Shown: positions 19,581-34,763 of the stretch, one piece after another
Layout: every line of letters begins with the position of its first letter
Position numbering within the stretch: position 1 is the first letter of the stretch
From: Bacteroidales bacterium
Lineage (GTDB): Bacteria > Bacteroidota > Bacteroidia > Bacteroidales > AUK083
DNA: 39,600 bases
Direction: 5' to 3'
NCBI GenBank assembly: GCA_021158345.1
Contig: JAGGUV010000057.1
Span: 1-39,600 of the forward strand
Translations under genes and position numbers: made by a program
Notes under the pieces: model-generated
What the model was told of the DNA's origin: nothing
Seen by the model: only the letters and a program-made list of their open reading frames with translations
Database searches by the model: none

Positions 19581-20093
19581 ATGATAAATATAAAAGGCAC
19601 ATATGAATGTAAAGTAGATTCAAAAGGCAGATTTATGTTTCCATTTAATTTTAAAAAACAATTGGAATCAATAATTGATAAGGGTTTTATTATAAAAAGA
19701 AGTGTGTTTGACAAATGTCTGGAATTATATCCTGATGAGGTATGGGACAAAGAATTAGAGCAAATAAACGGATTAAACAGGTTTGTAAAAGATAATATAA
19801 AATTTATAACAGCATTTATGTCGGGTCATACACCTGTAAGTTTGGATACAACTGGCAGGATATTAATACCCAAACATTTAATGGACTTTGCAGGAATAAA
19901 AACAGATAAGGATAAAAATAAAATTGTACTTGTATCAGCAATAGACAGAATAAATATTTGGGATAAAGAAGAGTATGATAAAGAAATATTAAAATTAAAC
20001 AAAGAATATTCTGAGTTAGCAGAAAAGGTAATGGGGAATAGAAACAAACAAAAAGACAATAACGATGTATCACAATCCTGTATTACTGAATGA
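19581..20093 (+). CDS. mraZ: Transcriptional regulator MraZ
   Basis: IKGTYECKVDSKGRFMFPFNFK and a second SpoVT/AbrB-like repeat VSLDTTGRILIPKHLMDFA; first gene of dcw cluster. Confidence 0.95.
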   Translation: MINIKGTYECKVDSKGRFMFPFNFKKQLESIIDKGFIIKRSVFDKCLELYPDEVWDKELEQINGLNRFVKDNIKFITAFMSGHTPVSLDTTGRILIPKHLMDFAGIKTDKDKNKIVLVSAIDRINIWDKEEYDKEILKLNKEYSELAEKVMGNRNKQKDNNDVSQSCITE

Positions 20094-20958
20094 AAGCATT
20101 AAAGCTCTGTCGATAAAGCCTGACGGAATATATGCAGATTTGACATTTGGTGGCGGTGGTCACTCAAGAGAAATTTTGAGAAATTTAAAAAATGGCAAAT
20201 TAATAGGTTTTGATCAAGATGAAGACGCTATAGCAAACGCTATAAATGACGAAAGATTTATTTTAATAAATCAAAACTTCAGATATATGTCGAATTTTTT
20301 AAAAATCAATAATGCTTATCCTATTGACGGAATTTTTGCTGATCTCGGAGTTTCATCACATCAAATTGATGTCCCTGAAAGAGGCTTCTCAAGCAGATTC
20401 GACAGTGAGCTCGATTCAAGAATGAACAGAAATAAAGAAAAAAATGCAAAAAAGGTTATAAATACTTATTCAAGAGAAAAATTAGTAAAAATATTTTCAG
20501 AATACGGAGAGATACAAAATTCTAAAAAGCTTGCTTTTGCAATCACAGAAAAAAGAAAAGAGCAAACAATAACAACAACAAAAGAACTTATAAATGCTAT
20601 CAGACCTTGTATTATCAGGGAAAAAGAAAATAAATATTTAGCACAAGTTTTTCAGGCTATTCGCATAGAAGTTAATGATGAACTTCAAGCATTGAAAGAT
20701 ATGCTGAAACAAACTCCAAAGGCTTTGAAACCCGGAGGCAGATTAGTTATTATTTCTTATCATTCATTAGAAGACAGAATTGTAAAAAACTTTTTTAAAT
20801 CAGGAAATTTTGAGGGGAAAATTGAAAAGGATTTTTATGGTAATCCTTTAGTTGATTTTAAAATAATAAACAAAAAACCAATTGTTCCAAGTGAAGAGGA
20901 AATTAAAAATAATAGCAGGGCAAAAAGTGCAAAATTAAGAATTGCAGAAAAATTATAA
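20065..20958 (+). CDS. rsmH: 16S rRNA m4C1402 methyltransferase RsmH
   Basis: YHNPVLLNESIKAL, DLTFGGGGHSREIL, GIFADLGVSSHQID, ISYHSLEDRIVKNFF. Overlaps mraZ by 29 nt. Confidence 0.97.
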   Translation: MYHNPVLLNESIKALSIKPDGIYADLTFGGGGHSREILRNLKNGKLIGFDQDEDAIANAINDERFILINQNFRYMSNFLKINNAYPIDGIFADLGVSSHQIDVPERGFSSRFDSELDSRMNRNKEKNAKKVINTYSREKLVKIFSEYGEIQNSKKLAFAITEKRKEQTITTTKELINAIRPCIIREKENKYLAQVFQAIRIEVNDELQALKDMLKQTPKALKPGGRLVIISYHSLEDRIVKNFFKSGNFEGKIEKDFYGNPLVDFKIINKKPIVPSEEEIKNNSRAKSAKLRIAEKL

Positions 20959-21320
20959 TGGCAAAAGAAGAAAACACATATAATTTACAAAAAAAAGAAC
21001 CTAAAAAAAAGAAGAAAAAAAGGAGTCTGATTTTAGATCTTTTTTTGGGAAGAATTATTACTAACTTTTTTTCAAGAAATATATCAATTATTTTTTTTGC
21101 TACTATACTTATTATTATTTACATAGCAAATGTTTACTATACTGAAAAAACAATAATTAAACTAAAAAAAATAAAACGTGAAAATAGAGAATTAAAATAT
21201 AAACAGATAACTTATAAAACATTATTGATGCATTTTGATAAGCAATCTGAAATACAAAAAAAAGTTAAAGAAACAGGTTTAAAGGAATCAGTAACTCCTC
21301 CAATAATAATTTATAAATAA
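20958..21320 (+). CDS. ftsL: FtsL-like cell division protein
   Basis: Small bitopic protein with one TM segment and coiled coil between rsmH and ftsI. Confidence 0.8.
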   Translation: MAKEENTYNLQKKEPKKKKKKRSLILDLFLGRIITNFFSRNISIIFFATILIIIYIANVYYTEKTIIKLKKIKRENRELKYKQITYKTLLMHFDKQSEIQKKVKETGLKESVTPPIIIYK

Positions 21321-21327
21321 AAGTAAA

Positions 21328-23439
21328 ATGTTGAAAAAAAATAACGACATATTTAACAAGATGTATTTGATGTTATTAATGACATTTATTTTATTTATAA
21401 CAATAGTAGTGCAAATATTTTACCTGCAACTTTATGAAGGAAACAAATGGCAAGAAAAGGCAGAAAAAGAAATATACAAACAAAATAAAATAAAAAGCAT
21501 AAGAGGAAATATTTATTCCTGCGATGAAAAACTATTAGCAACTTCAGCTATTTTATTTGATGTGTATTGGGATTCACAAATATACATGTCTGACAATAAA
21601 ACATTTAATGCTAAAATTGACACATTATCAGATTGTCTTTCAAAACTTTTCAGAATAAGAAGCAAAGCTTATTACAAAAAATTACTATTAAAAGCCAAAA
21701 AGAAAAAACAAAGATTTTTATTATTAAAACGAAATGTTAATTATTCAGATATAAGCAAACTAAAAACATTTCCAATATTCAGATTAGGGAAATACAAAGG
21801 AGGCTTAATTTTAAAAGAGAAATATAAAAGGCTGTTTCCGTTTTATCCATTGGCATACAGAACTTTAGGCTGGGATAAACCGGGAACAAAAAACGATTGT
21901 GGATTAGAGGGGAGTTTCAGTAAAATCCTTAGCGGCAAAGACGGGAAGAGATTAGAACAAAAAATTGCCAATGGTGAATGGAAGCCTGTTGATTTCAATA
22001 AATATGAAGTGGAACCAATTAACGGCAAAGATATTATCACAACCCTGGATATTAGCATTCAGGATATTACAGAAAATGCTTTAAGAAAACAACTTATTAA
22101 AAGTGAGGCATCTCAGGGATGTGCCATTGTTATGGAAGTGGCTACAGGGAAAATTAAAGCTATTGCCAATTTAACATTTGATAAAAAATCTAAAAAATAT
22201 AAAGAGCTATATAATATTGCCATAAGCAAAAAATACGAACCTGGGTCTGTATTTAAAACTGCTTCTATGATTTCAATATTAGAAGACAAAAAAATAAAAT
22301 TAAACGATAAAGTAAACACTTTTAATGGTTCAATAACATATTTTGGCAGGGATATGCGCGACTCTCATAAAATAGGGGATGGACTTATCTCGGTTAGAGA
22401 AGCCTTTGAAAAATCTTCTAATGTTGGCATGTCTAAAATTATTTTTGAGGCATATAAAGATAAACCCGGAAAATTCATAAATAATCTTTATAATATGAAT
22501 TTAAACAAGCCTGTTGGAATTGAAATAGAAGGAGAAAGAAAACCTTATATTAAAAATCCTAAAAGTAAATACTGGTATAAAACCTCTTTACCATGGATGT
22601 CAATAGGATATGAGCTTGAGCTTACACCTTTGCAAATACTTACTTTTTATAATGCTATTGCCAATAATGGCAAAATGGTTAAACCATTTATTGTCAAGGA
22701 AATTAAAGATGGGGCAAATACTGTTAAAACTTTTAAAACAGAAATAATAAAAGATTCAATTTGCTCAAAATCTACTATTAAAAAAATTCAAAGTTTATTA
22801 ATAGGTGTAGTGGAAAATGGGACTGCAAAAAATATTAAAAGCCGTGATTATAAAATTGCAGGAAAGACAGGTACTGCCAAAATATCATTAGGGAAATCAG
22901 GTTATAGTCATAAATACAATGCCACTTTCGTGGGATATTTCCCTGCAGAAAATCCAAGATATTCATGTTTTGTTGTAATAAATAAACCTACAAAAGGGGG
23001 CTATTATGGAAGTTCAGTTGCTGCACCTGTTTTTAAAGAAATCTCTGACCTGATTTATGCTACACATTTAGATAAATTTTATAAAGTAGAACCATTTTCA
23101 AATGATATAAAATATCCGCTTGCTAAAACAGCAAACTTAAATGACCTGAAAGTTTTTTATAATGAATTAAATTATAAAACCGAGAAAACAATTATTAATC
23201 AAGACTGGGTAGGGACAAATCAAAAAAATGACACGGTAAGATTTTATCCCAAAAGATATTCTGATAATACAATCCCGAATTTAAAAGGAATGTGTGCTAA
23301 AGATGCAATTTTTATTCTTGAAAATATGGGGTTAAAAGTTAAAATTGAAGGTAAAGGACGTATAAAAAAACAATCTCTAAGGCCGGGATCAAAAGTTAAG
23401 AAAGAAAGTTATATAACTTTAAAATTGTCAAAAATATAA
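21328..23439 (+). CDS. ftsI: Penicillin-binding protein FtsI with C-terminal PASTA domain
   Basis: SxxK (EPGSVFKTA), SxN (KSSNVGMSK), KTG (AGKTGTAK); PASTA-like tail IPNLKGMCAKDAIFILENMGLKVKIEGKGRI. Confidence 0.95.
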   Translation: MLKKNNDIFNKMYLMLLMTFILFITIVVQIFYLQLYEGNKWQEKAEKEIYKQNKIKSIRGNIYSCDEKLLATSAILFDVYWDSQIYMSDNKTFNAKIDTLSDCLSKLFRIRSKAYYKKLLLKAKKKKQRFLLLKRNVNYSDISKLKTFPIFRLGKYKGGLILKEKYKRLFPFYPLAYRTLGWDKPGTKNDCGLEGSFSKILSGKDGKRLEQKIANGEWKPVDFNKYEVEPINGKDIITTLDISIQDITENALRKQLIKSEASQGCAIVMEVATGKIKAIANLTFDKKSKKYKELYNIAISKKYEPGSVFKTASMISILEDKKIKLNDKVNTFNGSITYFGRDMRDSHKIGDGLISVREAFEKSSNVGMSKIIFEAYKDKPGKFINNLYNMNLNKPVGIEIEGERKPYIKNPKSKYWYKTSLPWMSIGYELELTPLQILTFYNAIANNGKMVKPFIVKEIKDGANTVKTFKTEIIKDSICSKSTIKKIQSLLIGVVENGTAKNIKSRDYKIAGKTGTAKISLGKSGYSHKYNATFVGYFPAENPRYSCFVVINKPTKGGYYGSSVAAPVFKEISDLIYATHLDKFYKVEPFSNDIKYPLAKTANLNDLKVFYNELNYKTEKTIINQDWVGTNQKNDTVRFYPKRYSDNTIPNLKGMCAKDAIFILENMGLKVKIEGKGRIKKQSLRPGSKVKKESYITLKLSKI

Positions 23440-24894
23440 ATGAAAATATTAAAAGACATATTAAAAAATATTAAGACAAAAAAAATTGTCGGGAAAATTG
23501 ATATTGAAATTCATTCAATATGTTTTGATTCCAGAGAAGCAAAGCCGCAATGTATTTTTGTTGCAGTGAAAGGGACAAAAACTGACGGACATAATTATAT
23601 TGAACAATGTATAAATGCAGGTGCTACAGTTATTGTTTGTGATGTTTTACCTGAAATTTTAATTGAAAATATTACTTATGTTCTTGTTGAAGATTCGAGC
23701 TTTGCCTTGGGAATTATTTCATCAAATTTTTACGATAACCCTTCATCACATATCAAAGTAATTGGGATAACAGGCACAAATGGCAAAACTACAACAGTAA
23801 ACCTTTTGCACGATTTGTTCACTGGCTTAGGCTATAAAGTTGGATTATTATCTACAATAGAAAATAAAATTGGAAACAAAATAATAAAATCAACTCATAC
23901 AACACCTGATAGTATTGAAATAAACAGATTATTAAAAGAAATGCTTGAACAAAATTGTTCGTATTGTTTTATGGAAGTCAGTTCACATGCAATAGTTCAA
24001 AACAGAATTGCAGGCATTAGATTTACAGGTGGAATTTTTTCGAATATTACTCACGAGCATCTCGATTATCATAAAAACTTTAAAGAATATCTTAAAGCAA
24101 AAAAAAGATTTTTCGACAATCTGCCTTCAACGGCTTTTGCTATCAGCAATATTGATGATAAAAATGGTGAAATAATTTTACAAAACACTAAAGCTTCAAA
24201 ATATTATTATAGTCTGAAACAAATAGCTGATTTTAAATGCAGAATTATTGAAAATAGAATTGAAGGATTACAAATAAATATTAACAATAATGACGTATGG
24301 GTAAAATTAGTAGGAGAATTTAATGCTTACAACATACTTGCTGTGTATGGTACAGCCATTTTACTTGGGGAAGAAAGCATTGAGATATTAAAAATTCTAA
24401 GCACTTTAGAACCTGTTGAGGGCAGATTTTATCATATTAAAAATAAAAAAAATACAACAGCAATAATAGATTATGCACATACTCCCGACGCTTTAAATAA
24501 TGTACTTGAAACAATAAAAAGTTTAAAAAGACCTAACAGTGAAATAATAACTGTAGTAGGAGCCGGGGGAGACAGAGATAAGTCGAAACGTCCTATTATG
24601 GCAAAGATAGCATGTAACTTAAGCAATAAAGTGATTCTTACTTCTGATAATCCAAGAACAGAGGAGCCTTTAAATATTATTGAAGATATGAAAAAAGGTG
24701 TGGAAAAAAAATATATTAAAAACGTATTAGTAATCTCTGACAGGGAAGAAGCTATTAAAACAGCCTGTATGTTATCAAATGAGGGAGATGTAATTTTAAT
24801 AGCAGGAAAAGGCCATGAAAAATATCAGGAGATAAATGGAAAAAAATATCCTTTTGATGATAAATTAATTTTAAAAAAATATTTTAATAACTAA
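23440..24894 (+). CDS. murE: UDP-MurNAc-tripeptide synthetase MurE, meso-DAP type
   Basis: GITGTNGKTTTVNLL, MEVSSHAIVQNRI, DYAHTPDAL, and DNPRTEEP. Confidence 0.96.
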   Translation: MKILKDILKNIKTKKIVGKIDIEIHSICFDSREAKPQCIFVAVKGTKTDGHNYIEQCINAGATVIVCDVLPEILIENITYVLVEDSSFALGIISSNFYDNPSSHIKVIGITGTNGKTTTVNLLHDLFTGLGYKVGLLSTIENKIGNKIIKSTHTTPDSIEINRLLKEMLEQNCSYCFMEVSSHAIVQNRIAGIRFTGGIFSNITHEHLDYHKNFKEYLKAKKRFFDNLPSTAFAISNIDDKNGEIILQNTKASKYYYSLKQIADFKCRIIENRIEGLQININNNDVWVKLVGEFNAYNILAVYGTAILLGEESIEILKILSTLEPVEGRFYHIKNKKNTTAIIDYAHTPDALNNVLETIKSLKRPNSEIITVVGAGGDRDKSKRPIMAKIACNLSNKVILTSDNPRTEEPLNIIEDMKKGVEKKYIKNVLVISDREEAIKTACMLSNEGDVILIAGKGHEKYQEINGKKYPFDDKLILKKYFNN

Positions 24895-24900
24895 CATAAG

Positions 24901-26145
24901 ATGCTGTATTATTTATTTGATTATCTCGAAAAATCCACAAATCTTCCCGGAGCTGGAATGTTTCATTACATTTCATTTAGAGCCGGTATGTCTGTAATCA
25001 CTTCTCTGGCAATTTCTTTATTGTTTGGCAAAAAAATCATCAATTATTTAAGAAAAAAACAAATAGGGGAAACTGTCAGAGACCTTGGATTAAAAGGACA
25101 AAATGAAAAACAGGGTACTCCAACAATGGGAGGGCTAATAATACTTGGAGCTATAATTATTCCCACATTATTATTTGCAAAATTAGACAACATCTACATT
25201 ATTATCATCTTAATATCCACAATATGGCTTGGTATTATTGGATTCATTGATGATTACATTAAAGTTTTTAAGAAGAACAAAAAAGGGCTTAGAGGAAAAT
25301 TCAAAATTCTGGGGCAGGTAGGTTTAGGCTTAATTGTTGGAATTACTATGTATTTTAACGATTCAATAGTTATCAAAGAAAAAATTACTAACAAAGAAGT
25401 AATTGAAAATATAAAAAATAATAATACTGAAAAAACTAAAAAAATATATTTTAAAGAAGCTGTAAAATCAACAAAAACCACAATACCTTTTGTAAAAAAT
25501 AATGAACTTGATTATTCTGTTTTGATAAAATGGGCAGGGAAAAATTACAAAGATTTTGCATGGATAATTTTCATACCAATAGTAATTTTAATAGTAACGG
25601 CAGTATCGAATGGTGCAAATATGACAGACGGATTGGATGGACTTGCCACAGGCTCATCTGCAATTATCGGAGCTACACTTGGAATTCTGGCATGGGTGTC
25701 AGGTAACACAATATTTGCCAATTACTTAAATATTATGTACATCCCTAATATTGGGGAGTTAACAATATTTATAAGTGCATTTGTAGGAGCGTGTATTGGA
25801 TTTTTATGGTATAACACTTACCCTGCACAAATATTTATGGGTGACACAGGCAGCCTCGCCCTTGGTGGAATAATTGCTGTTTTTGCTATTATGATACGTA
25901 AAGAATTACTCATCCCTGTTTTATGCGGTATTTTCCTCGTAGAAAACCTGTCAGTAATTATTCAGGTTGAACATTTTAAATTTACCAAAAAAAAATACGG
26001 TAAGGGGAGAAGGGTTTTTAAAATGGCTCCATTGCATCATCATTATCAAATGTTGGGATATCATGAAGCTAAAATTGTTCAAAGGTTTTACATCATTGGT
26101 ATTTTACTGGCAATAATTACAATAATAACTTTAAAAATCAGATAA
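24901..26145 (+). CDS. mraY: Phospho-MurNAc-pentapeptide transferase MraY
   Basis: [70 protein letters not shown]. Confidence 0.97.
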
Positions 26146-26161
26146 AAAAACATTATAAAAA

Positions 26162-27520
26162 ATGTCATTACAAAAAACAATAATATTAGGAGGTGGCGAA
26201 AGCGGTATTGGAGCAGCAGTACTTGCCAAAAAGCAGGGACTTAATATTTTTGTTTCTGATAGTGGAGTAATTAAGGATAATTATAAAAAAATTCTTATCG
26301 ACAATGATATAAAATTTGAAGAAGGTAAACATACAGAGACTATAATTTGTGAAGCTAATGAGGTGATTAAAAGTCCTGGAATTCCTGATAGCATCAAAAT
26401 AATAAAATTAATAAAAGAAAATAATATACCAATTATTTCAGAAATTGAATTTGCATCAAGATATACTAAAGCAAAAAAAATCTGTATTACAGGCAGTAAT
26501 GGAAAAACTACAACAACAGAGCTGATATATTATATCTTAAAAACAGCAGGACTAAATGTCGGAATAGCGGGTAATGTGGGGAAAAGCTTTGCCAGACAGG
26601 TGGCAGAAAACGATTTTGATTATTATGTTATTGAACTAAGCAGTTTTCAACTTGACGGCATGTTTAATTTCAAAGCAGAGATTGCAATACTAATGAATAT
26701 AACACCTGATCATCTTGACAGATATAATAATAATTTTCAGGAATATGTAAATTCAAAATTTAGAATTTGCAATAATCAAACTCCTGAGGATTATTTTATT
26801 TATTGTTTTGATGACAAGACTATAATTAAAGAAATTAAAAAAAGGACAATTAATTCTAAAAAGATACCTTTTTCAATCGATAGCTATCGGATGAAAGAAA
26901 AAATCAACGGACAAGGTGCAGAATTAATTAATAACAAAATGATTATAAACATTAATAATAAAATATTTGAGATGACAATAGAAGAATTAGCATTACAGGG
27001 AAAACATAACATATATAATTCAATGGCAGCAGGAATAAGCTCAAAACTTCTTAGCATTAGAAAAGAAACAATAAAAAAATGTCTGTCTGATTTTAAAAAT
27101 ATTGAGCATAGGCTTGAATTTGTTGCCGAGATTAATGGTGTTAAATTTATTAATGATTCAAAAGCAACAAATATCAATTCTACCTGGTATGCTCTTGAAA
27201 GCACAAAAAGTCCGATTATTTGGATAGCAGGAGGCAAAGACAAAGGAAATGATTATGAATTACTAAAAGACCTTGTAAAAGAAAAAGTAAAAGCAATAAT
27301 CTGTTTAGGTCTGGATAATACAAAAATTATTTCCGGCTTTTCTGATTGTGTAGAAAGCATTTTTGAAACAAAAACAGCCGCAGAAGCTGTAGGCATATCA
27401 TATAATATTGCTGATGAGGGCGATGTTGTATTATTATCTCCTGCTTGTGCCAGTTTTGATTTGTTTATTGATTATCAGGACAGGGGAAATAAATTTAAAA
27501 AAGCAGTATCTGAATTATAA
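26162..27520 (+). CDS. murD: UDP-MurNAc-L-alanine--D-glutamate ligase MurD
   Basis: ITGSNGKTTTTELI, LDGMFNFKAEIAILMNITPDHLDRY, NDSKATNINSTWYAL. Confidence 0.96.
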   Translation: MSLQKTIILGGGESGIGAAVLAKKQGLNIFVSDSGVIKDNYKKILIDNDIKFEEGKHTETIICEANEVIKSPGIPDSIKIIKLIKENNIPIISEIEFASRYTKAKKICITGSNGKTTTTELIYYILKTAGLNVGIAGNVGKSFARQVAENDFDYYVIELSSFQLDGMFNFKAEIAILMNITPDHLDRYNNNFQEYVNSKFRICNNQTPEDYFIYCFDDKTIIKEIKKRTINSKKIPFSIDSYRMKEKINGQGAELINNKMIININNKIFEMTIEELALQGKHNIYNSMAAGISSKLLSIRKETIKKCLSDFKNIEHRLEFVAEINGVKFINDSKATNINSTWYALESTKSPIIWIAGGKDKGNDYELLKDLVKEKVKAIICLGLDNTKIISGFSDCVESIFETKTAAEAVGISYNIADEGDVVLLSPACASFDLFIDYQDRGNKFKKAVSEL

Positions 27521-27555
27521 TTTTTTTATTTTAAACAAATAAATAATTTTTATTG

Positions 27556-28674
27556 ATGAAGAAATTTTCTAAGATATTAAAAGGTGACAATACAATATGG
27601 GCAATATTTTTCTTTTTTGCAATAATTTCTATTATTACAGTTTATAGCTCTGTTGGGTCACTGGCATATAGAGAGCATCAGGGAAACACAGAATTTTATC
27701 TCATCAAACAAGTTATAATTTTTTTAATAGGCTTTCTATTTATCTGGATAATTTCTTCATTTATTAATATAAATACTATCAAAAGAATCTCAAAATACGG
27801 TATTTATTTTATTATTCCATTATTATTATACACTTCATATAAAGGCATAAGAATCAACAATGCAAACAGATGGATATCAGTTTTTGGGCAGTCATTTCAG
27901 CCTTCAGACCTTGCTAAACCTTTGTTAATAATGTATGTGGCCTTTATGATTTCATACAAAAGAAAAAAAATACATGACTTTAAAACAGTACTAATTTATA
28001 TTTTTCTTCCTGTTTTTGTTATTTCAGGAATAATTTTTTACTCAAACTTGTCAACAGCAGGAATTTTACTTGTAACATGCTTTTTGTTAATGTTTATAGG
28101 CAGAATTAAATTTTTTCATTTATCAGCTTTTGCAGGTATAATTTTAATATCAGGATTATTGTTTTTTTTAATTCAAAAAGCAAGTAATAGTAACAAAGGC
28201 AGGTTAGATACAGGGAAAAATAGAATTGAACAATTTTTTGATTCAGAACCAAGCGAGCATGTCAACCAATCAAAAATTGCTATTTCAACTGCAGGAATAT
28301 TTGGAAAATTTGCGGGGCATAATATTCACAGAAATTTATTACCACTTTCGTATTCTGATTTTATTTTTGCTATGATAGTAGAACAATTTGGTATGGTTGG
28401 CGGGATATTTACTGTTTTATTATATTTCATTCTATTTTTCAGATGCATTATTGCAGCGCGGAAGAAAGAAAATTTATTCCAAATTTTATTAATTTTCGGG
28501 TTAGGTTTTATAATTACATTTCAGGCAATGATACATATACTTGTTAATGTTGGACTTTTTCCTGTTACAGGTCAGACCTTACCATTGATAAGTATGGGTG
28601 GAACATCAATAATATTTACTTGTATTTCATTAGGAATAATATTAAACATTACCAGGGAGGTTGAAAATGAATAA
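27556..28674 (+). CDS. ftsW: Cell division protein FtsW (SEDS glycosyltransferase)
   Basis: Polytopic SEDS protein: NANRWISVFGQSFQPSDLAKPLLIMY, HVNQSKIAISTAGIFGKFAGH, SDFIFAMIVEQFG, TGQTLPLISMGGTS. ATG at 27556. Confidence 0.96.
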   Translation: MKKFSKILKGDNTIWAIFFFFAIISIITVYSSVGSLAYREHQGNTEFYLIKQVIIFLIGFLFIWIISSFININTIKRISKYGIYFIIPLLLYTSYKGIRINNANRWISVFGQSFQPSDLAKPLLIMYVAFMISYKRKKIHDFKTVLIYIFLPVFVISGIIFYSNLSTAGILLVTCFLLMFIGRIKFFHLSAFAGIILISGLLFFLIQKASNSNKGRLDTGKNRIEQFFDSEPSEHVNQSKIAISTAGIFGKFAGHNIHRNLLPLSYSDFIFAMIVEQFGMVGGIFTVLLYFILFFRCIIAARKKENLFQILLIFGLGFIITFQAMIHILVNVGLFPVTGQTLPLISMGGTSIIFTCISLGIILNITREVENE

Positions 28675-31117
28675 AGTAAAAATAATTATAAGCGGAGGTG
28701 GCACCGGAGGTCATGTTTTTCCTGCAATTGCAATAGCAAATGCTTTGAAAGAAAAAATCAATAATCTTGAGATTTTGTTTATTGGAGCAAAAGGAAAAAT
28801 TGAAATGGAGAAAATCCCTGCACAAGGATATAAAATTATCGGATTAAATATTAGTGGCTTCCACAGAAGCTTGACAGCAAAAAACCTCTCATTTCCTTTT
28901 AAACTTATTTTAAGTATTTTTAAAGCAAAAAAAATTATAAAATCATTTAAACCCGATTTGGTAATTGGTGTGGGAGGATATGCCAGTGGTCCCACCTTGA
29001 GAGTAGCAGGCAAAAAAAATATTCCTGTTATTATTCAGGAACAAAATTCATATCCAGGCATTACCAACAAATTACTTGCAAAATATGCAAAAAAAATCTT
29101 TGTGGCTTATGAGGGTATGGATAAATATTTTGATAAAGATAAAATTATTATTGCAGGAAACCCTGTCAGACAAAGCTTAGCTGAATTAAAAGTTGACAAA
29201 ACCGAAGCTTTAAAATATTTTAATCTTGCGGAAGACAGAAAGACAATTTTAATTGTAGGGGGCAGTCAGGGAGCACGGACAATTAACGAAAGTATTTATA
29301 ATAAAATTAAACTATTTAATAATAGCAATTATCAGCTTATCTGGCAAACAGGAAAATATTTTTATGACACTGCTAATGAACTTATTAACAGTAAAAATTA
29401 TGATAATATTAAAATATTTAAATTTATCACTAAAATGGATTATGCTTATGCAGTTGCAGACCTGGTGGTTTCAAGAGCAGGAGCAATATCTATTTCGGAA
29501 ATCTGCGCAGTAAAAAAACCTGCTATTTTTGTCCCTTATCCTTTTGCTGCCGAAGACCATCAGACAAAAAATGCCATGGCTCTTATTAACAAAAATGCTG
29601 CTGTTCTCATCCCTGATAGAAATGCAAAAAGCAAACTCGCTGATGAAATAATTGAGCTGATTTCAAATGAAAATCATTTATTAAGACTTAGCGAAAATAT
29701 TTCAAAATTATCATTCAAAAACTCGGCTGAAATTATTGCCGAAGAAGTAAAAAAAATATTAAATATTAAAAGTATAAATCTACAAAATATAAAAAATGTC
29801 TATTTTCTTGGAATAGGAGGTATAGGCATGAGTGCTCTTGCAAGATATTTTAATGCAAAAAATATTATTGTTTCAGGCTACGACAAAACACAAACTGCTC
29901 TGACTGACAATCTTACTAAAGAAGGCATTGAAATTAGTTTTGAAGATGACATAAAAAATATTCCAAAAGATATTGATTTAGTGATTTACACTCCTGCAAT
30001 TCCCAAAGAAAATGCACAGTACCAATACTTTATAAAAAATAACTATGCCCTGATGAAACGTTCGGAAGTCTTGGGTTTGTTAACAAAAGATATTTTTACT
30101 ATTGCCATAGCCGGAACTCATGGGAAAACTTCCATCACGTCCTTAACAGCTCATATTCTAAAAAAATCAGGTTTAGATATTACTGCTTTCATTGGAGGTA
30201 TTTGTAATAATTATAATTCAAACCTTATTATTTCAGAAAAAAATGAAATGATAATTGTTGAAGCAGATGAATTTGACAAATCATTTTTATCGCTTTATCC
30301 AGATATTGCAGTAATCTCTTCTATTGATGCAGATCATCTTGATATTTATAAAGACAGAAAATCTTTAACAGATGCATTTTCCGAATTTGCAAATCAAATA
30401 AAACCTGATGGGACTCTTATCATAAATAAAAAAATTGATTTAAAATGTAAATCAAATAAAATTACATATTCATTAGACGAAAATTCTGATATTTATGCAA
30501 AAGATATTATAGTAAAAGATAATGAGTATAATTTTAATTTAAAATATAAAGAGAAAGAAATAAAAGACATCAAAATAAAAATACCGGGCAGGCATAATAT
30601 AGAAAATGCTGTTGCAGCTGCTGGTGTAGCTTATCTTCTTAATATTGATAAAAAGGATATTAAAACAGGAATAGAATCATTTAAAGGAGTAAAACGCCGT
30701 TTTGAATATATCTTAAAAACAGAAAAAACTATTTTTATTGATGATTATGCTCATCATCCTAACGAGATAAAAGCCTGTATTAAAACTGTAAAAGAATTAT
30801 ATCCGGGTAAAAAAATCACAGGAATATTTCAACCTCATTTGTTTTCGAGGACTAAATATTTCGCAGATGAATTTGCTGAAAGTCTTGAACCCTTGGACAA
30901 TATTATTTTACTCGATATATATCCTGCACGCGAAAAACCTATTAAAGGAATAAATTCTGAAATGTTGTTGAAAAAAATTGAAAATAATAATAAGTGTTTA
31001 ATGTCTGTAAAAGAAATTTTAAATAATTTTAAGGACAAAAAACCTGAAGTGATAATTACAATTGGAGCCGGTGATATTGATAAACTCATTGAACCTTTAA
31101 AAAATGTATTAATTTAA
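28667..31117 (+). CDS. murG-murC: Fused MurG-MurC: lipid II synthase (GlcNAc transferase) and UDP-MurNAc--L-alanine ligase
   Basis: One uninterrupted ORF of about 816 aa. MurG half: SGGGTGGHVFPAIA, IGVGGYASGP, EQNSYPGITNKLL, GGSQGARTINE, SRAGAISISEI, PYPFAAEDHQTKNA. MurC half: LGIGGIGMSALARYF, AGTHGKTSITSL, EADEFDKSFL, DDYAHHPNEIKA, QPHLFSRTKYFADEFA. ATG at 28667 with GGGAGG upstream. Confidence 0.95.
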   Translation: MNKVKIIISGGGTGGHVFPAIAIANALKEKINNLEILFIGAKGKIEMEKIPAQGYKIIGLNISGFHRSLTAKNLSFPFKLILSIFKAKKIIKSFKPDLVIGVGGYASGPTLRVAGKKNIPVIIQEQNSYPGITNKLLAKYAKKIFVAYEGMDKYFDKDKIIIAGNPVRQSLAELKVDKTEALKYFNLAEDRKTILIVGGSQGARTINESIYNKIKLFNNSNYQLIWQTGKYFYDTANELINSKNYDNIKIFKFITKMDYAYAVADLVVSRAGAISISEICAVKKPAIFVPYPFAAEDHQTKNAMALINKNAAVLIPDRNAKSKLADEIIELISNENHLLRLSENISKLSFKNSAEIIAEEVKKILNIKSINLQNIKNVYFLGIGGIGMSALARYFNAKNIIVSGYDKTQTALTDNLTKEGIEISFEDDIKNIPKDIDLVIYTPAIPKENAQYQYFIKNNYALMKRSEVLGLLTKDIFTIAIAGTHGKTSITSLTAHILKKSGLDITAFIGGICNNYNSNLIISEKNEMIIVEADEFDKSFLSLYPDIAVISSIDADHLDIYKDRKSLTDAFSEFANQIKPDGTLIINKKIDLKCKSNKITYSLDENSDIYAKDIIVKDNEYNFNLKYKEKEIKDIKIKIPGRHNIENAVAAAGVAYLLNIDKKDIKTGIESFKGVKRRFEYILKTEKTIFIDDYAHHPNEIKACIKTVKELYPGKKITGIFQPHLFSRTKYFADEFAESLEPLDNIILLDIYPAREKPIKGINSEMLLKKIENNNKCLMSVKEILNNFKDKKPEVIITIGAGDIDKLIEPLKNVLI

Positions 31118-31120
31118 TAA

Positions 31121-31897
31121 ATGAAAAAAATATTATACATATTACTTTGGATTTTTATTATATCGGGAATATCCTTTATAATCGTTATCTTTAGCAAAAA
31201 CCATTCAAACAGTCTTTGTAAGGGAATTGAAATAAATATTAAATATAATAATTGCCAGCCTATTATTTATAAAGATGAAATATTATCAAAAATTAATAAT
31301 ATTTACGATTCAATTGAAAAAATAAAAATATCGGAAATAAATACTGAAAAAATTAATAATGAAATTAAAAAAAATCCGTATATTGACGAAGCAAATGTCA
31401 AGATTAGTATAAATGGAAAATTAAAAATCAGAATTATACAAAAAAATCCTATTGTCAGAGTGATAAACAAAAAAAATCAAAATATGTTTATTGATATTAA
31501 AGGAGATATTATTACCCATAAACCAAATCATCCATTAAGACTATTAATAGCAAATGGAAACATTAATGAAATTTATAAAAATAAAACAAACATTAACAAC
31601 TCAAAGTACAAGAAAACAAAAACATATAAAATATATTATCTGGCAAAACATATTAAAGAAAATAAATTTTTAAATTCTCAGATACAGCAAATTTATATTA
31701 ATTCAAAAACCGGAGATATTGAATTGCTTCCTTATGTAGGGGAACATACAATAGTTTTCGGTGATATTGATAATACAGAAGAAAAGCTCGAAAAATTAAT
31801 AATCTTTTATAAAAAAGGATTACGAAATATTGATTGGAATAAATATAAAACACTTAATTTAAAATACAAACATCAAGTTGTTTGTTCAAAAAAATAA
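31121..31897 (+). CDS. ftsQ: Cell division protein FtsQ-like
   Basis: N-terminal TM, POTRA-like region (INNEIKKNPYIDEANVKISINGKLKIRIIQKNPIVRV), between murC and ftsA. Confidence 0.85.
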   Translation: MKKILYILLWIFIISGISFIIVIFSKNHSNSLCKGIEINIKYNNCQPIIYKDEILSKINNIYDSIEKIKISEINTEKINNEIKKNPYIDEANVKISINGKLKIRIIQKNPIVRVINKKNQNMFIDIKGDIITHKPNHPLRLLIANGNINEIYKNKTNINNSKYKKTKTYKIYYLAKHIKENKFLNSQIQQIYINSKTGDIELLPYVGEHTIVFGDIDNTEEKLEKLIIFYKKGLRNIDWNKYKTLNLKYKHQVVCSKK

Positions 31898-31901
31898 TAT
31901 T

Positions 31902-33179
31902 ATGGATTCATCAGAAATAATAGTAGGTTTAGATATTGGTACAACAAAAATAGCAGTAATTGTAGGTAAGAAAAACGAATCTGGAAAAATAGACATTATC
32001 GGTTCCGGTAAAACAGAATCAATAGGTGTTAAAAGAGGCGTTGTTTCAAATATTGAAAATACAGTACAGTCAATACGAAAAGCTGTTGAAGAAGCAGAGA
32101 TAAAATCAGGTGTAAATATAAGGAGTGTAAATGTAGGAATTGCAGGTCAACATATCAAAAGTCTTCAACATCATGGTAGTTTAATAAGAGACAACATTGA
32201 TAATGAAATCTCAAAGCAAGATATTGAGAAGCTAAAAGAAGACATGTATAAATTAGCTATGAATCCCGGAGAGGAGATAGTAGAAGTGATACCACAGGAA
32301 TATACTATTGATAATGAACAAGGAATTAAAATGCCAATAGGTATGTCGGGGGTATCCTTGGAAGCTAATTTTCATATTATCACATGCAAGACAACAGCAG
32401 CAAAAAACATTTATAAATGTATAAAAAAGGCGGGACTTGATATTGTTGATCTTATATTAGAGCCTTTAGCATCAGCAGAAGCAGTGTTAAGTGATGAAGA
32501 AAAAGAAGCAGGTGTAGCATTAATAGACATAGGAGGGGGGACAACAGATATAGCAATTTTTCAAGAAGGTATTATTCGTCATACTGCTGTATTGCCTATT
32601 GGCGGTGATATTATTACTGAAGATATTAAAGAAGGATGTAATATTATTAAAAAATATGCAGAAGACCTGAAGATAAAATTCGGTTCTGCATTGGCAAGTG
32701 AAAATAAAAATGAAGAAATTGTAGCCATTCCCGGCTTAAGAGGCAGACCACCAAAAGAAATATCCCTTAAAAATCTTGCCAGCATTATTCAAGCCAGAAC
32801 AGAAGAAATTATTGAGCATTTTATCTTTGAGATAAAAAATTCAGGTTACGAAAAAAAATTAATAGCAGGCATTGTCTTAACAGGAGGAGGTGCATTACTA
32901 AAACACATTGTTCAACTTACTGAATTTATGACAGGTATGGATACAAGAATAGGTTATCCTAATGAATATCTATCAAACGATATACCTAAAGAAGTTGCTT
33001 CACCTGTTTATTCCACATGTATTGGATTAGTTTCTAAAGGATTTAATAATAAAAATAAAAATTTAAATATTGCTCTGGAAAAAGATGAAAAAACAATAAA
33101 GCCAAAAGATAAAGAAACCAGAATAAATTTTTTCGATAAAATAAAAAATTGGTTAGAGCAAGACATTGAAGAAGAATAA
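31902..33179 (+). CDS. ftsA: Cell division protein FtsA
   Basis: VGLDIGTTKIAVIVG, ALIDIGGGTTDIAIF, GIVLTGGGALLKHI. ATG at 31902 begins MDSSEIIVGLDIG. Confidence 0.96.
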   Translation: MDSSEIIVGLDIGTTKIAVIVGKKNESGKIDIIGSGKTESIGVKRGVVSNIENTVQSIRKAVEEAEIKSGVNIRSVNVGIAGQHIKSLQHHGSLIRDNIDNEISKQDIEKLKEDMYKLAMNPGEEIVEVIPQEYTIDNEQGIKMPIGMSGVSLEANFHIITCKTTAAKNIYKCIKKAGLDIVDLILEPLASAEAVLSDEEKEAGVALIDIGGGTTDIAIFQEGIIRHTAVLPIGGDIITEDIKEGCNIIKKYAEDLKIKFGSALASENKNEEIVAIPGLRGRPPKEISLKNLASIIQARTEEIIEHFIFEIKNSGYEKKLIAGIVLTGGGALLKHIVQLTEFMTGMDTRIGYPNEYLSNDIPKEVASPVYSTCIGLVSKGFNNKNKNLNIALEKDEKTIKPKDKETRINFFDKIKNWLEQDIEEE

Positions 33180-33215
33180 AAAAATAATAATAATCTTTAT
33201 AAAAACCTACAAAAA

Positions 33216-34763
33216 ATGCAGAATCTAAAATTTAACGCACCGAAAAACCAATCGTCAATAATAAAAGTTTTAGGAGTTGGCGGTGGAGGAAGTAATGCAG
33301 TAAATCACATGTTCAATCAAGGAATCAAAGGAGTTGATTTTGTTATTTGCAATACTGATGCGCAGGCATTAAATATGAGTAATGTTCCTACAAAAATACA
33401 ACTTGGTGTAACTCTTTCGGAAGGCATGGGTGCAGGTTCAGACCCTGAAGTAGGCAAACAGGCAGCTTTAGAAAATATTGAAGATATAAAAGAAATTTTA
33501 GAAAACAATACTAAAATGCTGTTTATCACTGCAGGAATGGGTGGCGGCACAGGCACTGGCGGTGCTCCTATCATTGCCGAGGCTGCTAAAAATTTAGGTA
33601 TTCTTACCGTAGCAATTATTACAATACCTTTCTCTTTTGAAGGAAGAAAAAGAGCTCTTATTGCAGAAGAAGGTATTAAAGAATTAAAAAAACATGTTGA
33701 CACAATTTTAATTATCTGTAATGACAGACTAAGAGATCTTTATGGAAATTTAAAATTGTCTGAAGCTTTCCATAATGCAGATAATGTTCTTGCTACTGCT
33801 GCTAAAGGTATTGCTGAAATAATTACTGTCCCGGGATATATTAATGTTGATTTTAAAGATGTTAACACAGTGATGAAAAATAGCGGTGTTGCTATTATGG
33901 GTTCTGGAATTGCTGATGGAGAAAACCGTGCAATAGCTGCTGTTGAGCAAGCACTTAGCTCTCCTTTACTTAATGATAATGATATTGACGGTGCTAGCGA
34001 TATTTTATTATATATTGCTTCAGGCGAGGAAGACGAAGTATCAATGGATGAAGTTACTGAAATCACTAATTATATTCAAAATAAAGCTGGTATAAATACA
34101 AATACTATCTGGGGAACAGGAAAAGACAAATTATTAGATAATAAAATTAGTATTACTTTAATAGCTACAGGCTTTAATAAAGGAAAAACAAAAATTGAGC
34201 TTGAAAAAGATAAAATTGTTCACAGACTGGAAGAAGACTCAGAAAAAGATGAAACAAAAATAATTGATAACTTTCAGAAAGAAGAAAAATTAAAAAATTC
34301 AATAAAACTCATCCGGAAAAAAACTTATGAGGAAAATTCTCTAGAAAATTTTCAGGTAAAAGAAACTATTTATAATAAAGACAATGAAGTAAAACCCGAA
34401 AATAAAATTACTGAACATGTAACTTTAAACAAAGAAGAAGACCCTGGAAAAGACAAACTATTTTTTAAAACAAAATTACACTTAAGAAAAACTATTAATT
34501 TTCGAGATAATCAGGATAACGTTCTTAGCCCACTGACTAACGAAAGGATTATGCAAATTAAAAAACAAAGTCAAGAATTAAAGACAAAATCGGGGTTGGA
34601 AAGGATTGAAAGAATTCCTGCCTATATCAGACGAAACGTAAAATTACAAAATATTGAGCATTCATTAGAAGATAATATATCACATTACACTCTTTCTGAA
34701 AAAGATGATAATACGTCAGAAATAAAAACTAATAATTCATTTTTACACGACAATGTTGATTAA
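33216..34763 (+). CDS. ftsZ: Cell division protein FtsZ with long C-terminal linker
   Basis: GVGGGGSNAVNHM, NTDAQAL, GMGGGTGTGGAPIIAE tubulin signature; IPAYIRRNVKL-like conserved tail peptide. Confidence 0.97.
   Translation: MQNLKFNAPKNQSSIIKVLGVGGGGSNAVNHMFNQGIKGVDFVICNTDAQALNMSNVPTKIQLGVTLSEGMGAGSDPEVGKQAALENIEDIKEILENNTKMLFITAGMGGGTGTGGAPIIAEAAKNLGILTVAIITIPFSFEGRKRALIAEEGIKELKKHVDTILIICNDRLRDLYGNLKLSEAFHNADNVLATAAKGIAEIITVPGYINVDFKDVNTVMKNSGVAIMGSGIADGENRAIAAVEQALSSPLLNDNDIDGASDILLYIASGEEDEVSMDEVTEITNYIQNKAGINTNTIWGTGKDKLLDNKISITLIATGFNKGKTKIELEKDKIVHRLEEDSEKDETKIIDNFQKEEKLKNSIKLIRKKTYEENSLENFQVKETIYNKDNEVKPENKITEHVTLNKEEDPGKDKLFFKTKLHLRKTINFRDNQDNVLSPLTNERIMQIKKQSQELKTKSGLERIERIPAYIRRNVKLQNIEHSLEDNISHYTLSEKDDNTSEIKTNNSFLHDNVD

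Follow-up and report, generated by a model that had tools for sequence, protein, structure and literature searches.

Does the long open reading frame at positions 28667–31117 of the window (the whole 39,600-nucleotide stretch analysed here) encode two cell-wall enzymes, MurG and MurC, as one protein, and if so, are the two activities coupled? A sequence-only reading had described this frame as a MurG–MurC fusion inside the dcw cluster and had proposed substrate channelling or feedback coupling between its halves. We confirmed that the fusion is a genuine single-frame gene. The best explanation, which we consider very probable, is that it encodes two complete enzymes joined by a short tether, arisen by loss of a stop and a start codon, with no channelling between them.

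The fused gene and its genomic setting

The fusion gene (+ strand, as are all window features given below) is an 816-codon ORF that runs from an ATG at 28667 to a TAA stop at 31115–31117 without internal stops, and its 816-aa product showed two full-length equivalog matches. The MurG half (residues 1–365, 28667–29761), a lipid II synthase of the GT28 family, matched the NCBIfam profile TIGR01133 (murG) at residues 3–360 with 316.9 bits against a cut-off of 250.25, covering profile positions 5–352 of 353. The MurC half (residues 370–816, 29774–31114), a UDP-MurNAc–L-alanine ligase, matched TIGR01082 (murC) at residues 377–810 with 407.5 bits against a cut-off of 335.1 (profile positions 1–447 of 449). 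A Pfam search of the whole protein returned the five domains expected for MurG plus MurC (PF03033 and PF04101; PF01225, PF08245, and PF02875), and the solved structures of MurG (1f0k) and MurC (9ir5) matched residues 5–365 (E 2.5e-49) and the MurC half (E 4.3e-80), respectively. When 28 sequences were aligned, G15 and H16 of the MurG loop fell in invariant columns, as did G483, H485, G486, K487, D693, H696, and H697 of the MurC half, which retains the ATP-binding GTHGKT motif and the catalytic residues. The retention of conserved residues in the MurG half is consistent with its predicted GlcNAc transferase activity. A complete MurG followed by a complete MurC in one stop-free ORF is what the sequence-only reading had described.

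The dcw cluster is otherwise usual for Bacteroidota, in the order mraZ, rsmH, ftsL, ftsI, murE, mraY, murD, ftsW, murG–murC, an ORF at the ftsQ position, ftsA, ftsZ, and a yqeY-like gene. The upstream genes from mraZ to murD (19581–27520) were assigned by NCBIfam/Pfam matches. The immediate upstream neighbour, ftsW (27553–28674), shares 8 bases with the start of murG; TIGR02614 was its best match, with 219.8 bits, under the cut-off of 337.5. Immediately downstream, the ORF at 31121–31897 gave no match in NCBIfam and Pfam searches and, from its position, presumably encodes a diverged FtsQ. It is followed by ftsA (TIGR01174, PF14450) and ftsZ (PF00091, PF12327) at 31878–34763.

The genome that contains the window is a 2.47-Mb draft of 190 contigs that is 95.5% complete; within it, no second MurG was found, and the fusion was the only MurC above the cut-off. 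A 476-aa MurC/Mpl-like paralogue, the only other close MurC-like protein in the genome, is encoded on contig 96 (L002:1480–2910, genome G000). It was rejected as an extra MurC copy since, with 30% identity, it reached neither the murC nor the mpl cut-off. Since no second MurG was found and this paralogue lies below the cut-offs, the fusion appears, from the gene content, to be the cell's source of both MurG and MurC activities. Scans of related genomes gave MurC-like matches of about 25–36% identity in many of them, and the contig 96 paralogue may represent an unnamed Bacteroidota Mur-ligase subfamily.

Occurrence and independent origins of the fusion

We examined how widely the fusion occurs using single full-length matches (E up to 1e-180), which require murG and murC to lie in one frame. 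Such a match was present in 59 of the 393 genomes of an order sample; at least one stop intervened in 54 of these genomes (exactly one in 46), and none in the remaining five, namely, the window genome, G196, G192, and the same-genus pair G187 and G085. A class sample contributed the stop-free genomes G750, G548, G713, G667, and G537. A phylum-wide trait was rejected because the window was the only stop-free full-length match in a 395-genome phylum sample, at a threshold that strongly diverged fusions could miss. Open frames of about 850 aa among the MurC-only matches of the phylum sample (e.g., G978, G1089, G673, and G470) proved to be unfused when their sequences were inspected.

We found 23 fused loci, every one in Bacteroidota. 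Three fused genomes of family f169 belong to genus g308 (all three g308 genomes with a match), the other f169 genera being unfused; both genomes of f182 and both of f86 were fused; and f91 had 11 confirmed fusions among 48 genomes, with G803 as an additional candidate and the rest separate or incomplete. Three named loci of the GTDB collection were also fused, in a Paludibacteraceae MAG (L085), a Bacteroidales MAG (L086), and a Tannerellaceae MAG (L097). In the fused frame of L148 (G667), about 200 open codons precede MurG, giving a 1054-aa open frame. As the sequence-only reading had held for most Bacteroidota, murG and murC were separate and adjacent in most relatives, often sharing one reading frame interrupted by a single stop, so that fusion by stop loss would be an easy, recurring step.

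The fusion state was mapped, as that reading had suggested, on a tree of 160 concatenated MurG and MurC pairs that included the 23 fused loci and whose deep branches are weakly supported. Parsimony gave seven changes for the fusion state, compared with a mean of 21.75 and a minimum of 19 for shuffled labels; the seven changes probably represent about six gains and one fission. The probable fission is at L173 (G790), an unfused locus with TGA and TAG between murG and murC that is nested in a fused clade. The window is a lone fused tip with an unfused nearest neighbour, L007 (support 0.685), and the f169 and f182 fusions may represent one or two events. Linker length varied from a few residues up to about 55 (L085), and the linker sequences were variable and unconserved.

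MurC and MurG act at non-consecutive steps, as had been pointed out; MurD, MurE, MurF, and MraY act between them in the pathway, making direct channelling implausible. The AlphaFold2 model of the window protein (mean pLDDT 87.6, pTM 0.62) consisted of two confident halves whose mutual placement was not confident, which suggests that they are joined by a tether rather than a channel; the model is a weak test of a fusion-specific interface, as 24 of the 28 rows in its alignment were read-throughs of unfused pairs. Channelling via a rigid composite structure was rejected on the same placement, which is not a strong test. Together with the scattering of the fusions over about six lineages, the unconserved linkers, and the probable fission, these points leave the proposed channelling or feedback coupling unsupported.

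A looser functional coupling, in which the fusion was selected because the tethered first ligase stabilises a membrane multi-enzyme cluster with MurG as the scaffold, or links the flux of early and late steps, seems to us unlikely, although several observations fit it. The fusion recurs among these lineages and was found in both genomes of each of two families and in all three matching genomes of g308, and MurG has been reported as a Mur-ligase scaffold (PMC6420597); conversely, the fusion is rare overall, its linkers differ in both length and sequence, L173 is a likely fission, and the two halves are placed without confidence. When five junctions between adjacent dcw genes were checked across 174 loci, MurG–MurC was the only one ever to form one ORF (23 of 166, against 0 of 153–163 for the others), but this contrast is biased because the loci were chosen by MurG–MurC similarity and each of the other junctions has a membrane protein, FtsW or FtsQ, as a partner: FtsQ–FtsA partners apart, MurG–MurC is the sole junction of two soluble or peripheral enzymes without an integral membrane protein. 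We infer that the effect of the fusion is co-localisation or is near-neutral. We regard as rather doubtful the idea that repeated fusion reflects selection for a physical complex in which MurG brings the first Mur ligase to the membrane; if true, the fusion would provide a natural one-gene module for testing the long-debated cytoplasmic Mur complex.

The junction and its proposed origin

The junction NIKS (residues 366–369, 29762–29773) was located by codon comparison with L007 and L117 and by protein-level comparison with L036. Counted backwards from the conserved VYFLGIGG, the window codons at 29762–29776 are AAT ATT AAA AGT ATA; the corresponding codons are AAA TAA GAA TAA TTG in unfused L007 and AAA TAA GAA AAA TTG in unfused L117. 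The murG stop position of close relatives is represented in the window by ATT (29765–29767) and AAA (29768–29770), and an ATA codon (29774–29776) occupies the site where relatives start murC with TTG or ATG. In the unfused relatives, MurG ends with a lysine followed by the stop and MurC restarts a few codons downstream; in L036, the murG stop is two codons ahead of the methionine start. TTG rather than ATG apparently starts murC in several relatives (L007, L116, and L117). The actual junction is about 3–5 residues long; the linker is thus short, as had been claimed, but the segment originally quoted for it is mostly the MurG tail and the normal MurC N-terminus.

In the window, no in-frame ATG, GTG, or TTG was found within the 22 codons preceding the MurC nucleotide-binding loop, and the next in-frame ATG is M388, within GIGGIGM, which is too late as a start for a working MurC. 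It is improbable that the fused ORF is processed, or that MurC is also made from an AUA or AUU start, to give two enzymes in the cell: AUA lies exactly at the ancestral start position and fused L141, L143, and L144 retain an ATG close to the old murC start, but initiation at AUA or AUU is very rare, and ATG, GTG, and TTG are as absent near the old murC start in fused L001 and in the fused relatives L086, L164, L169, and L174 as at the window junction. Several species in the fused clades lack a conserved murC start codon. The protein is probably made intact with both halves active, in which case MurC would be co-localised with membrane-associated MurG at a 1:1 ratio.

An assembly or sequencing error that erased the stop between two separate genes is highly unlikely, even in a draft genome that alone represents its family and whose nearest tree neighbour is unfused, because at least two codons (the stop and the start) differ from those of relatives, which a single base error would hardly explain, independent fused genomes exist within the same order, and frame and homology are unbroken on both sides up to the junction, which also rules out a frameshift or chimera.

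In the proposed route of stop and start loss, murG and murC would originally have been neighbouring genes of a Bacteroidota dcw cluster that shared a direction and a reading frame, with one or two stop codons lying a few bases ahead of murC; mutation of the stop(s) and of the murC start codon would then have produced one gene. Its product would comprise two complete enzymes, each folded independently and linked by a short tether, the MurG half converting lipid I to lipid II at the membrane face and the MurC half joining UDP-MurNAc and L-Ala. The fusion would fix the MurG:MurC stoichiometry and locate MurC wherever MurG sits, and substrate would not pass directly from one half to the other.

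Relation to known Mur fusions

Natural Mur fusions are cited in support of a multi-enzyme complex for cell-wall synthesis. The recurrent Bacteroidota MurG–MurC fusions, with their variable linkers and likely fission, offer natural cases for testing that argument; at the same time, the ease with which fusion can arise makes it, on its own, weak evidence for channelling.

This kind of fusion is already known. A 2016 review states that murG/murC fusions occur, naming Cellulomonas gilvus (PMC4929429), and a 2019 paper lists MurG/MurC among fused pairs of non-consecutive steps (PMC6420597). The sequence-only reading had allowed that the fusion might prove to be already characterised: it had indeed been reported, but the available excerpts of PMC4929429 and PMC6420597 contain no biochemical characterisation of the pair. 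The present analysis adds a member in Bacteroidota, the route by stop loss, and the repeated occurrence, of which we found no description in the open-access literature.

The fusion of C. gilvus, an actinobacterium, joins the same adjacent dcw genes as that in the window (PMC4929429); it belongs to another phylum, is compared here by description rather than sequence, and presumably represents a separate event from the Bacteroidota ones. The unfused pairs of most Bacteroidota (e.g., L007 and L036) have the same gene order and direction as the window and often the same frame but, unlike the window, possess a murC start codon and a stop a few codons before it. MurC is joined to a different peptidoglycan enzyme in MurB–MurC of Verrucomicrobium spinosum (PMC4803751) and in MurC–Ddl of Chlamydia (NCBIfam PRK14573). 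The PRK14573 profile matched the window protein in its MurC part only (273.5 bits against a cut-off of 1015, profile positions 6–446 of 809), and no Ddl domain follows MurC, with which the protein ends at residue 816. MurE–MurF of Bordetella pertussis likewise carries two Mur enzymes on one polypeptide, and its elongated, flexible shape with distant active sites matches the loose two-half model of the window protein (PMC6420597). Unlike the window fusion, it combines two ligases of consecutive steps and has been studied biochemically and by SAXS (PMC6420597).
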